The translations under genes and the position numbers were made by a program. A stretch of 64,000 nt of DNA from an uncultured Selenomonadaceae bacterium. GTDB lineage: Bacteria > Bacillota > Negativicutes > Selenomonadales > Selenomonadaceae. The DNA is taken from assembly GCA_905233135.1 (NCBI GenBank), contig CAJOCQ010000001.1:1-64000 (forward strand), written 5' to 3'. Under the pieces are notes generated by a model that worked only from the letters and a program-made list of their open reading frames with translations, made no database searches and was not told the DNA's origin. The first letter of the stretch is position 1, and each line of letters begins with the position of its first letter. Below are positions 58,000 to 63,347 of the stretch, one piece after another.

Positions 58000-59079
58000 T
58001 TGTTGGGATTGAAAAGGGAACTGATTCATCTTGAAAACGTGGTTAAGAAATTTGGAAACTTAACGGTTCTTGACGAAATCGATTTAACAATTTACGAAAA
58101 TGAATTTGTAACAATTTTGGGACCGAGCGGCTGCGGCAAAACTACTTTGCTTAGAATTATAGGCGGCTTTGAAACGCCCGACGCAGGCAAAGTTATTTTC
58201 GACGGCAAAGATATTACAAGCGTCCCGCCCAATCGCCGCCCAATTAATACCGTCTTCCAAAAATATTCTCTGTTTTCCCATATGAACGTTGAAGAAAATA
58301 TTTCATTCGGTCCGAAAATTGCGGGCAAATCTGCGGATTATATCAGCGACAAAGTTAAATATGCTTTAAAGCTCGTTAACCTTGACGGTTACGAAAAACA
58401 CGACGTTACTAAACTTTCAGGCGGGCAACAGCAACGTATTGCAATAGCGCGCGCAATCGTTAATGAGCCGAAAGTTTTATTGCTTGATGAGCCACTGAGC
58501 GCACTTGATTTAAAACTTCGCCGCGCTATGAGAGATGAACTTGTCCGCATTAATCGAGAAACGGGGATAACTTTTATTTTCGTAACGCACGACCAAGAAG
58601 AAGCCCTTTCAATGTCAGATACAATCGTTGTAATGAATCAAGGTTACATTCAGCAAGTTGGAACGCCCGAAAATGTTTATAACGAGCCCGAAAACGCCTT
58701 TGTTGCAGATTTTATCGGCGACAGCAATATTATTGACGGCGTTATGGTACGTGATAAATTGGTTAGAATTTTGGGCAGAGAATACGCCTGCGTTGACGTA
58801 GGATTTGCGCCTGAAAGCCCCGTTGACGTACAGATAAGACCCGAAGATATAACTTTGACTGAACCGCAGGAAAACGCCTTAACGGGCACTGTAACGCGCG
58901 TTGTGTTTTGGGGTATGTCTTATGATATAACAGTTGACGCAGGCGGCTTTTCGTGGCTTATACAGTCGATACACGGGCGCAAAATTGGCGAGCAGGTAAG
59001 CTTGCACCTTGACCCCTTCAATATTCAAATTATGGCTAAGCCGCAATCTGAAGACGAACAAATTGCTAAGGAAATTTAA
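58000..59079 (+). CDS. potA: Spermidine/putrescine ABC transporter ATP-binding protein
   Basis: LGPSGCGKTTLLRIIGGFETPDAG, LSGGQQQRIAIARAIVNEPKVLLLDEPLSALD, TOBE-like C-term. Confidence 0.93.
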   Translation: MLGLKRELIHLENVVKKFGNLTVLDEIDLTIYENEFVTILGPSGCGKTTLLRIIGGFETPDAGKVIFDGKDITSVPPNRRPINTVFQKYSLFSHMNVEENISFGPKIAGKSADYISDKVKYALKLVNLDGYEKHDVTKLSGGQQQRIAIARAIVNEPKVLLLDEPLSALDLKLRRAMRDELVRINRETGITFIFVTHDQEEALSMSDTIVVMNQGYIQQVGTPENVYNEPENAFVADFIGDSNIIDGVMVRDKLVRILGREYACVDVGFAPESPVDVQIRPEDITLTEPQENALTGTVTRVVFWGMSYDITVDAGGFSWLIQSIHGRKIGEQVSLHLDPFNIQIMAKPQSEDEQIAKEI

Positions 59080-59084
59080 AAATT

Positions 59085-59852
59085 ATGAATTTACAATTTG
59101 ATGAATCTTTGGCAGTAAATTATAAAAGCGCGGCTCAAAAAATCCGCGTTATGAGTGAATCGTGGCTTGTATCAAATTTATTTTGCCCGTGTTGCGGTAA
59201 TATTCATATTGATAAAATGAAAAATAATTTGCCGGTTGCCGACATTCATTGCGCAAATTGCGGCGAAATTTTTGAGTTGAAAAGCAAAAAAAATAATATC
59301 GGCGCAAAAATTGTTGACGGCGCATATAATACGATGATTGAACGAATTACCGGCAATTTAAACCCGCAACTTTTTATTATGGGATATTCGGAAAATTTAT
59401 TTGTAAAAAATTTAATCTTGGTGCCGAAATTCTTTTTTTCTCCAGATATTATCGAAAAACGAAAAGCTCTTTCAGAAAATGCAAGGCGCACCGGTTGGGT
59501 TGGCTGTAACATTTTATTTCAGAAAATTCCTGAGCAGGGCAAAATAAATATTATCCGTGACGGTAAAGAAATTGAAATTGCAAAAATTTTGCATCAGTAT
59601 AACCAAACTAAAAAATTAAAGACTAATAATTTAAATTTGCGCGGCTGGATGCTGGATATTTTAAACTGTATAAACGATATAAAATCTGAAACTTTTACCT
59701 TGCAGGAAATTTACAGATACGTAGATTTTTTAAAGTCAAAACACAATTTAAATAATAACGTTGAGCCGAAAATTCGGCAGCAGTTACAATTCCTGCGCGA
59801 TAAAGGCTTTATAGAATTTATCGGGCGCGGCAAATATAAGAAGGTGACATAA
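59085..59852 (+). CDS. Type IIM restriction endonuclease DpnI family (cleaves methylated GATC)
   Basis: YKSAAQKIRVMSESWLVSNLFCPCCGNIHIDKMKNNLPVADIHCANCGEIFELKSKKNNIGAKIVDGAYNTMIERI...NARRTGWVGCNI; C-term KIRQQLQFLRDKGFIEFIGRGKYKKV. Confidence 0.95.
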   Translation: MNLQFDESLAVNYKSAAQKIRVMSESWLVSNLFCPCCGNIHIDKMKNNLPVADIHCANCGEIFELKSKKNNIGAKIVDGAYNTMIERITGNLNPQLFIMGYSENLFVKNLILVPKFFFSPDIIEKRKALSENARRTGWVGCNILFQKIPEQGKINIIRDGKEIEIAKILHQYNQTKKLKTNNLNLRGWMLDILNCINDIKSETFTLQEIYRYVDFLKSKHNLNNNVEPKIRQQLQFLRDKGFIEFIGRGKYKKVT

Positions 59853-60052
59853 TGAAAAAATATCGTGTTATCATTGAAGAAATAATGTCTGAAGAATTTG
59901 AACTGGAAGCTGAATCGGAAAAAGAGGCAATTTCTAAGGCGATGGGTGCTTATAAATCTGGAGAATTTGTTTTAGAACCGGGAAATTTTGAATACGCACA
60001 GTTGAAAGTAGCGGATGAAGACGACAAATGCAGTGAATGGATTAAAATTTGA
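59852..60052 (+). CDS. DpnD/PcfM family protein
   Basis: MKKYRVIIEEIMSEEFELEAESEKEAISKAMGAYKSGEFVLEPGNFEYAQLKV; start overlaps DpnI stop. Confidence 0.88.
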   Translation: MKKYRVIIEEIMSEEFELEAESEKEAISKAMGAYKSGEFVLEPGNFEYAQLKVADEDDKCSEWIKI

Positions 60053-60053
60053 T

Positions 60054-60560
60054 ATGTTGCAAAATCACATTATCAGCAACCGTTACGATTATGTTACAGG
60101 GGTTGAAGTCGGACTTGATTCAAACGGCAGAAAAAATCGCGGCGGGCATCAAATGGAAAATCTTGTAAAAAAATTTCTGAAAAAAGCAAACGTCGAATCT
60201 TATGAACAAATGTACTTGAATGACATTGAGAAAAAATGGTGCGTCGATTTATCTGCAATTTCAGCAGGTGGCACTTCGACAAAACGTTTTGATTTCGTAG
60301 TTAAAACCGCCGAAAAAATTTTTGCACTCGAAACTAATTTTTATTCAAGCGAAGGCTCTAAATTAAATGAAGTTGCACGAAGTTACAAATTGCTCGCGCA
60401 GGAGTCCTCGCAGATTGAAAATTTTCAATTTGTTTGGATAACTGACGGCGGCGGCTGGCAAAGCGCAAAAAATAATTTGCAAGAAACTTTTTTGGAACTT
60501 GATACGCTGTACAACATTAAAAATTTAGAAAACGGAATATTTGTTGAACTCTTCACCTAA
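60054..60560 (+). pseudogene. DpnII (MboI-like) GATC restriction endonuclease, C-terminal part only
   Basis: DMLQNHIISNRYDYVTGVEVGLDSNGRKNRGGHQMENLVKKFLKK...VDLSAISAGGTSTKRFDFVVKTAEKIFALETNFYSSEGSKLNEVARSYK...FVWITDGGGWQSAKNNL; N-terminal portion absent. Confidence 0.85.
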
Positions 60561-60582: not shown

Positions 60583-61407
60583 ATGTTTCACTCTGTACAA
60601 ATACGAAATTTATTTCTCGCCCCGTTTATTATTTGGGCGGGAATTTTTATTTTTGTGCCGCTGATATTTATAATTTGGTACGGCATAACGGACGCGGCAG
60701 GAAATTTTTCGCTGGAAAATCTTGCAATGATTTTTCAAACAGAATTTTTTAAATCGCTTGAAATGTCGGTGCTTTTAGCCTTTGTCAGCACGGCAATTTG
60801 TTTAATATTGGCGTACCCTTTATGCTTGATTTTGGTTGAACGGGCGAAAAGCGCGGGCTTGATAATAACATTGCTTTTCGTGTTGCCGCTATGGATGAAC
60901 ACGCTGCTTTCAACAATGGCTTGGCAGACAATTTTGGAAAAAAACGGAATACTTAACCAATTTTTGCGGCTGCTGTCGTTGCCTGACTTCACGCTGATAA
61001 ACACGCAGGCGGCGGTAGTTTTGGGAATGATTTATAACTATCTGCCGTATATGGTGTTGCCGCTGTACGTTGCACTTTCCAAAATTGATAAAAGCGTTAT
61101 CGAGGCGGCGAAGGATTTGGGCGCGTCAACGTGGCAAACATTTTTAAAAGTAATTCTGCCGCTTTCTTTACCTGGCGCAGTTTCGGGGATAACAATGGTA
61201 TTTATTCCCGCGCTTACAACTTTTGCAATAAGCGCACTTTTAGGCGGCGGCAAGGTTTTATTAATCGGCAACGTCATTGAACAGGAATTTACTTTTGAAT
61301 ATGACTGGAATTTGGGCGCGGCGTTGTCAATCGTACTGATGATTTTTATTGTACTGAATATGATTTTAACATTTGCGTTTGACTCTTCGCACGAAGAAGA
61401 TAGTTAA
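60583..61407 (+). CDS. potB: Spermidine/putrescine ABC transporter permease PotB
   Basis: Six TM; AAKDLGASTWQTFLKVILPLSLPGAVSGITMVFIPALTTF. Confidence 0.92.
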   Translation: MFHSVQIRNLFLAPFIIWAGIFIFVPLIFIIWYGITDAAGNFSLENLAMIFQTEFFKSLEMSVLLAFVSTAICLILAYPLCLILVERAKSAGLIITLLFVLPLWMNTLLSTMAWQTILEKNGILNQFLRLLSLPDFTLINTQAAVVLGMIYNYLPYMVLPLYVALSKIDKSVIEAAKDLGASTWQTFLKVILPLSLPGAVSGITMVFIPALTTFAISALLGGGKVLLIGNVIEQEFTFEYDWNLGAALSIVLMIFIVLNMILTFAFDSSHEEDS

Positions 61408-61515: not shown

Positions 61516-62292
61516 TTGGCAAAACTCAAAACGATTTACCTTGCAATAATTTTTCTGTTCCTGTACGCGCCAATAGGAGTTTTAATAGCGCAGTCATTCA
61601 ACGAGAGCCGTTATCGCGGGCACTGGACGGGATTTTCTTTGAAGTGGTACGAAGCACTTTTTGAAAATGAAGAAATAATTGAGGCGTTGCAAAATACAAT
61701 TTCTATAGGATTTTTTTCGGCGTTAATCGCAACGATTTTAGCGTTGGTAACTTGCTTAGCCCTGCGCGAAGTCGGGAAAAAATTGCGCGCAATGTTTATG
61801 AGCGTGGCGAACATTCCAATTTTAAACGCGGATATTGTCACGGGAATATCATTAATGCTGTTATTTTTGGGAATGGGAATAAAATTGGGCTACGGCTCAA
61901 TTTTAATAGCGCACGTGGTTTTCAACGTTCCCTACGTGATACTTTGCATAATGCCGCAGTTAATGACGTTGGATAAATCATTTTATGAAGCGGCGTTAGA
62001 TTTGGGCGCGTCGCCTTTCAAGGCGTTTATAAGTGTAGTGTTGCCTGAATTGCGTCCGAGCATTTTTGCGGGCTTTTTGTTGGCGTTTACAATGTCGGCG
62101 GACGATTTTATAATAACGTACTTCACGCGCGGTGCGGGCGTCGATACATTGCCGACAGAAATTTATTCGCAGCTGAAATTGGGCATTCATCCCGAAATGT
62201 ACGCGCTCTCAACACTTGTATTTTTCACGGTTTTAATTTTCGTGATACTTTTTGCATTTAACAGAAAAAAACTTGGCGAGGAGGTTTTATAG
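61516..62292 (+). CDS. potC: Spermidine/putrescine ABC transporter permease PotC
   Basis: FNESRYRGHWTGFSLKWYEALF..., AALDLGASPFKAFISVVLPELRPSIFAGFLLAFTMSADDFIITYF. Confidence 0.93.
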   Translation: MAKLKTIYLAIIFLFLYAPIGVLIAQSFNESRYRGHWTGFSLKWYEALFENEEIIEALQNTISIGFFSALIATILALVTCLALREVGKKLRAMFMSVANIPILNADIVTGISLMLLFLGMGIKLGYGSILIAHVVFNVPYVILCIMPQLMTLDKSFYEAALDLGASPFKAFISVVLPELRPSIFAGFLLAFTMSADDFIITYFTRGAGVDTLPTEIYSQLKLGIHPEMYALSTLVFFTVLIFVILFAFNRKKLGEEVL

Positions 62293-63347
62293 TGAAAAAA
62301 ATTCTTGCCTTGCTGATTTTTGGAATTTTTATAAGCGGCTGCAGTTTTGCCAAAAATGAAGACGAAGGCGAAAATGTTTTGTACGTGTATAATTGGGGCG
62401 ATTATCTGGATATGGAAACCGTTAAAAAATTCGAGGAAGAAACGGGCATAACGGTTATTTATGACGAATACGACACCAATGAAAGTATGTACCCGCGCAT
62501 TGCCGAAGGCGCAATTCATTATGACGTTATCTGCCCTTCGGATTATATGATTCAGAAAATGATTGACAACGATTTAATTCAGCCGCTGGACTTTGAAAAA
62601 CTTCCCAACGCCAAAAAATATATCGGCGAAAAATTTTTTGAGCAGTCAAGAACTTTTGACCCGGAAAATAAATATTCGGTGCCGTATTGTTGGGGAACAG
62701 TCGGCATAATGTACGATACAAGCGTTGTTGAGGAGCCCGTTGACAGTTGGGAAATTCTTTGGGACGAAAAATACAAAAATGAAATTTTAATGCAAGATTC
62801 TTCGCGCGACGCTTTAATGATACCGCTGAAACTTATGGGGCGCAGTATGAATGAAACTGACAAAGAAATTATCGAAAAGGCGCGGGATATGTTAATAGCG
62901 CAAAAGCCGCTTGTACAGGCTTACGTTGTTGACGAGGCAAGAGATAAATTAATTGGCGGCGAAGCGGCGTTGGGCGTGGTGTTTTCGGGCGAAGCTCAAA
63001 GTATTATGGACGAAAATGAGAATATGGACTTTGCTGTTCCGAAGGAAGGCACAAATTTTTGGATTGACAGTTGGGTAATTGCGAAGGACGCCGAAAACGT
63101 TGACAACGCGCACAAATTTATTGACTTTATGTGCCGCCCTGAAATTGCCGTGATAAATTTCGACCATTTGGGCTACTCGACGCCGAATATTGCAGTTAGG
63201 GAACTTGAGGAAGACGAAGATTGGAAAAATTCGCCCGTAATTTTCCCCGACCCTGAAGTTTATGAAAGTCAAGAAACCTACAAATATTTGGGCAATGAAA
63301 TGGACAGATTTTATAACCGCCAATGGATGCGCGTTAAAGTTGAATAA
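62292..63347 (+). CDS. potD: Spermidine/putrescine ABC transporter substrate-binding protein (lipoprotein)
   Basis: Lipobox FISGCSF; VLYVYNWGDYLDMETVKKFEEETGITVIYDEYDTNESMYPRI. Confidence 0.94.
   Translation: MKKILALLIFGIFISGCSFAKNEDEGENVLYVYNWGDYLDMETVKKFEEETGITVIYDEYDTNESMYPRIAEGAIHYDVICPSDYMIQKMIDNDLIQPLDFEKLPNAKKYIGEKFFEQSRTFDPENKYSVPYCWGTVGIMYDTSVVEEPVDSWEILWDEKYKNEILMQDSSRDALMIPLKLMGRSMNETDKEIIEKARDMLIAQKPLVQAYVVDEARDKLIGGEAALGVVFSGEAQSIMDENENMDFAVPKEGTNFWIDSWVIAKDAENVDNAHKFIDFMCRPEIAVINFDHLGYSTPNIAVRELEEDEDWKNSPVIFPDPEVYESQETYKYLGNEMDRFYNRQWMRVKVE

Follow-up and report, generated by a model that had tools for sequence, protein, structure and literature searches.

Switching between DpnI and DpnII is known, to our knowledge, mainly from the pneumococcus. 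In Streptococcus pneumoniae, DpnI (dpnC-dpnD) and DpnII are alternative cassettes at one chromosomal site, a mechanism described as an "intercellular cassette", and the exchange involves whole cassettes with shared flanks. The locus reported here has in common with that system that DpnI and DpnII are alternatives at one site with opposite demands on GATC methylation. Both cassettes occur between potA and potB in the genome under study (G000) and its sister species G062, and both occur between glmS and wecG in many relatives (relatives' genomes carry G numbers here, and L numbers denote the loci or contig stretches that were read). However, several differences from S. pneumoniae were found. The sister genomes appear to catch the swap in another bacterial group, where a dpnB scar was left behind, and ORF-precise swaps seem to have taken place within operons at two or more unrelated chromosomal sites. 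The displaced system would be dpnA-dpnB without dpnM, and in relatives another restriction-modification (R-M) system, composed of DpnM and a DUF6997 endonuclease, would also have been displaced.

In the window (the whole 64,000-nt stretch of G000 that was analysed), three consecutive ORFs lie among the ABC transporter genes potA, potB, potC and potD, as identified by Pfam (Table 1), which agrees with the potA-potB site given in the initial annotation. That annotation had read the ORFs as DpnI, DpnD and a C-terminal part of DpnII; profile matches and DNA homology support this reading, and the matches of all three appear too strong to be due to chance. The dpnD ATG overlaps the dpnI stop codon by one base, as had been claimed, and dpnD orthologues follow dpnI in G053, G067, G070, G110 and G122. 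The third ORF (60054-60560) opens with an ATG one base past the dpnD stop, and its earliest in-frame ATG, at 60015, lies inside dpnD. From 60048, which corresponds to codon 114 of 283, the DNA is homologous to an intact dpnB as far as its native stop and beyond, into potB, so the DpnII frame does emerge at the dpnD stop, as first noted. The remnant is the last 170 codons, or about the last 60%, of dpnB; it has no internal stops, also as annotated, and it matches PF04556 (DpnII) with 227 bits at profile positions 115-276 of 278 only. Codons 1-113 are therefore the missing part. The possibility that the third ORF is not related to DpnII was ruled out by the PF04556 match and the DNA homology to intact dpnB.

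Table 1. Features of the potA-potB region, with positions in the window.
Feature	Position	Strand	Remarks
potA-like ABC transporter ATPase	58000..59079	+	PF00005, PF08402; left flank; 88% DNA identity to G062 up to cassette
Left junction of the probable replacement, at dpnA/dpnI start codon	59080..59087	.	G062 homology ends; window 59087 = L068:2320
dpnI, methyl-directed endonuclease, 255 aa	59085..59852	+	Active-site residues intact
dpnD, 66 aa, DpnD-PcfM family	59852..60052	+	PF14207, E=4e-10
Right junction, where the end of dpnD meets dpnB codon 114/115	60047..60053	.	G062 homology resumes; 60048 = L068:3411
dpnB remnant, codons 114-283 of R.DpnII	60048..60560	+	PF04556; ORF from ATG 60054 or ATG 60015
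potB-like permease, right flank	60583..61407	+	PF00528; collinear with G062
potC-like permease	61516..62292	+	PF00528
potD-like solute-binding protein	62292..63347	+	PF13416

The DpnI protein matched PF06044 with 244 bits (positions 1-182 of 183) and PF17726 with 109 bits (3-70 of 70), and it aligned end to end with the solved R.DpnI structure 4esj (1-253, E=1e-72). The PD-(D/E)xK residues D53, E64 and K66 are kept, as are the methyl-cleft residues L129, R135, W138 and G140 and the zinc cysteines; the roles of these residues were taken from earlier work (PMC4117772). The protein thus resembles R.DpnI (Type IIM, PF06044, PDB 4esj/4kyw) over its full length in active site, methyl cleft and zinc site, with no notable difference. 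The cell would now be expected to have unmethylated GATC and to restrict Gm6ATC DNA. No DpnI relatives were found in viral contigs, phages gave one partial match only, and the only matches in plasmid records were two Neisseria records of more than 2 Mb each, which is chromosome-sized; phage or plasmid carriage of the DpnI form seen here would thus appear to have left no sign. Widening the DpnI search to class level added three more DpnI genomes, which were left out of the gene-neighbourhood comparison.

The strongest evidence for how this arrangement arose comes from G062, which has an intact cassette in the same gap, in the order potA-dpnA-dpnB-potB. Its dpnB is full (283 aa), and its 257-aa dpnA product belongs to PF01555; the nearest solved relatives are CcrM and an entry deposited under the name DpnA. 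The DNA flanking the cassette is about 83-88% identical between the window and G062; homology breaks sharply at the dpnA/dpnI start codon and is back at dpnB codon 114, and about 963 bp of dpnI-dpnD in G000 stands where G062 has about 1,093 bp of dpnA and 5' dpnB. The potA-potB gap is empty in G084, G078, G083, G092 and G093, where the two genes overlap by a few bases, and the spacing is about 25 bp in G097 and G076. Because potA lies next to potB in these other relatives, the gap was presumably empty originally, and a succession from empty to DpnII to DpnI can be read from the three states of the site. The initial annotation had proposed that a DpnII cassette was replaced by DpnI and that the 3' end of dpnB was left, and the comparison of relatives bears this out: we consider a DpnII-to-DpnI replacement between potA and potB highly probable. 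The displaced cassette, though, was of the two-gene dpnA-dpnB form and not the three-gene dpnM-dpnA-dpnB form first suggested. A chimeric assembly or binning artefact that joined a dpnI contig to a dpnB-pot contig is very improbable. G000 is indeed a multi-contig assembly that is 86% complete, but the join lies inside a 304-kb contig, the estimated contamination is 0.07%, and the same kind of join recurs in G053, G067, G110 and G122.

It has been reported that DpnI strains need unmethylated GATC whereas DpnII strains need methylated GATC (PMC3573125). The proposed model is that the common ancestor of G000 and G062 had the dpnA methyltransferase and the dpnB R.DpnII between potA and potB, and that a dpnI-dpnD unit, running from the start codon to the dpnD stop, took the place of the entire dpnA ORF and of dpnB codons 1-113 on the G000 branch. 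A single event would then have removed GATC methylation and disabled R.DpnII together. If the methyltransferase had been kept, the host would have become a DpnI substrate, and if it alone had been lost, a DpnII substrate; one-step loss of both would avoid both deaths, and the swap was therefore probably survivable. The leftover DpnII core would be, with near certainty, a scar by origin. Within the G000 assembly the either/or of DpnI and DpnII holds: the remnant is the only DpnII sequence found, and no PF02086 methyltransferase or close dpnA gene was found in this 86% complete assembly. Two points count against the model, namely that a GATC methyltransferase could sit in the missing sequence and that a methyltransferase of unspecified target is present. 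The latter, at 35% identity the best DpnA-like match in G000, is part of another two-gene unit. That unit (L114:752-2292, contig C7 of G000) encodes a 257-aa protein without a Pfam match and an N6/N4 methyltransferase of PF01555, and it is probably another R-M system. Strict either/or logic is also challenged by G074 and G105, which are described below.

The swap is recurrent. Most relatives with a cassette use the second site, glmS-wecG, where about 16 genomes have an intact dpnA-dpnB and dpnB sequence comes after dpnI in at least six relatives of the same genus. At this site, dpnB follows dpnI from codon 97 in G053, from about codon 115 in G110, from about codon 115 with an internal deletion in G067, and from codon 144 in G079; dpnI lies beside a gutted dpnB in G084, beside a full dpnB in G074 and without dpnB in G070 and G078. 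In G122, from another genus, dpnI, dpnD and dpnB from codon 137 come after a DpnM homologue that has DSPY in place of the DPPY motif, and this genome bears scars on both sides of the dpnI unit. In every case of dpnB following dpnD, the stop codon of dpnD marks the end of the incoming unit. Since the joins in G000 and G110/G067 differ little in dpnB codon position, they may share an origin; the junctions in G053, G079 and G122 are distinct. A scan of genome contigs found only two full-length DpnII relatives, and the dpnB part of contig L032 (uncultured Selenomonadales bacterium) was placed as identical to its G113 counterpart.

An unrelated second R-M system was observed in ten genomes (L216-L225; G098, G097, G063, G082, G108, G052, G112, G080, G061 and G058). 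It consists of a DpnM-like methyltransferase and a DUF6996/6997/7226 endonuclease (REase_II in PADLOC), and GATC is plausible as its recognition site. In G058, G061 and G080, dpnI lies in the methyltransferase slot of this system, beside a DUF endonuclease that is internally deleted (G058), truncated (G061) or full length (G080), and in G112 dpnI comes after a truncated DUF endonuclease; three of these four endonucleases are thus truncated. When both systems were taken together, the endonuclease was truncated in 10 of 12 cases beside dpnI compared with 1 of 27 beside a methyltransferase (Fisher P ~1e-6, on our own count, which ignores kinship among the genomes). The DUF6997 pair in G058 and G061 was dropped as a clean selection test because of a dS of ~1.1 and differing junctions.

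The conserved remnants pose the question of what purpose a restriction enzyme core has without its methyltransferase. Over 170 residues, the G000 remnant shares 78% identity with G062 DpnII, and it resembles the R.DpnII/MboI family (PF04556) in every invariant residue of its part (46 of 46 past the junction), including the catalytic core residues D195, E208, N210 and K218 (G062 numbering). However, it differs from that family by the loss of the first 113 residues and of the partner methyltransferase, and it is therefore not expected to act as a GATC restriction enzyme. The remnant sequence had no match in the PDB, and the nuclease-like folds retrieved by structural searches matched only weakly and in part (TM of at most ~0.5), so no function was assigned from them. 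In an AlphaFold model, the catalytic core of DpnII begins at about residue 148, and the remnant alone is predicted to fold from its residue 30 on; both predictions were based on alignments of only 23-24 sequences. In a branch codon model with background branch lengths fixed and approximate intervals, omega was 0.16 (~0.12-0.20) for the remnant branches jointly, where fixing omega=1 costs 51 lnL units, and 0.106 (~0.06-0.25) for the G000 branch, which is like intact enzymes. Thus, on the G000 branch either at most ~1/6 of the branch was neutral or purifying selection went on after truncation.

The initial annotation had left open a very recent scar or a retained partial protein, and the second has gained weight from similar remnants elsewhere and from purifying selection in G110 and G067. 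These two genomes have a common 29-bp dpnD/dpnB junction, their remnants group together with 97% support, omega is ~0.12-0.14, and omega=1 is worse by 13 lnL units; this remnant is demonstrably older than the species split and under purifying selection. Its dS (0.40) is similar to that of dpnI, dpnD and wecG (0.29-0.34) and thus gives no sign that the remnant was recently replaced from outside. These data count against regarding the remnants as neutral, fairly recent scars, that is, useless or untranslated debris, either young or refreshed by exchange with intact dpnB alleles: omega is this low despite a dS of ~0.3-0.4 across the cassette, and the grouping does not suggest recent import. A neutral scar is nevertheless the probable explanation, since remnants vary in length and several are eroding, the G000 omega interval permits some neutral evolution, and intact alleles of dpnB are widespread in the genus.

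That the DpnII core is instead a retained functional gene, with dpnI-dpnD-dpnB(core) acting as one cassette, is unlikely, although it is compatible with a replacement origin. In its favor are the joint omega, the G110/G067 pair, and the invariant residues past the junction, which are all kept in G000, G053, G079 and G110 (the G122 remnant departs at three positions immediately next to its junction). The remnant is also predicted to fold, all five 5'-truncated dpnB joins (codons 97-144) lie upstream of the predicted catalytic core, and the internal deletions in G084 (two), G110, G067 and G114 are all in frame. However, the remnants of G079, G110 and G067 have weak start codons or lack one, dpnB is wholly lost in G070 and G078, further parts are lost in each of G110 and G067, and the G067 dpnI looks frameshifted. 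Low omega on single-genome branches may also reflect recent truncation only, and frame keeping may come from coupling to the downstream gene, though such coupling fails as a full account because it could explain the in-frame deletions but not the low dN/dS. A possible job of the core would be that of a dominant-negative subunit that poisons full-length R.DpnII and so protects an unmethylated host from residual or incoming DpnII. The more specific idea that an orphaned endonuclease was trimmed towards its catalytic core and afterwards retained as a useful protein, for example as such an antidote shielding the chromosome, is distinctly doubtful. A stable, conserved family of short DpnII-like proteins, which the initial annotation had regarded as evidence against its proposal, may yet turn out to exist, but it would leave the replacement origin standing.

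GATC is depleted about 9-fold in G000, with 80 sites observed compared with 715 expected in 451 kb (window 1-64000 plus loci L103, L171 and L196-L213), which extrapolates to ~430 sites genome-wide where ~3,900 are expected. This depletion is fitting for a long DpnII-like past, and few GATC sites would make a DpnII-to-DpnI transition cheaper. However, the shortage extends to GGCC and CATG, and scarce GATC alone therefore does not prove that a DpnII system was once present. Rusinov et al. (2015) found GATC avoided in 38 of 42 DpnI-type cases and judged this surprising because DpnI should not punish unmethylated GATC (PMC4687349). Much of this avoidance may be inherited if it is common for DpnI loci to have once housed GATC R-M systems. 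Among 4-base palindromes in G000, observed/expected ratios were 0.04 for GGCC, 0.11 for GATC, 0.14 for CATG, 0.29 for CCGG and 0.39 for CTAG, with others at ~1. In G103 and G066, which have no dpn cassette in the stretches read, GATC is normal and GGCC is still avoided.

Several other arrangements were observed in relatives. In G074 (L086:7212-8826), the neighbour of dpnI is a dpnB of full length in which Y22Q is the only change at an invariant residue, and dpnA was not found in the genome. In G105 (L096:2441-4025), an intact-looking DpnM homologue with the DPPY motif kept immediately precedes an intact dpnI, a combination that would seem to be self-destructive. The glmS-wecG site holds dpnA and a gutted dpnB in G114 (L134:1200-2200), dpnA alone in G088 (L160) and an in-frame deletion fusion of dpnI and dpnD in G108 (L097:9227-9538). 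In G079 (L087:9641-10036), a 131-aa ORF without a Pfam match lies between dpnI and the dpnB remnant, at the position expected for dpnD.
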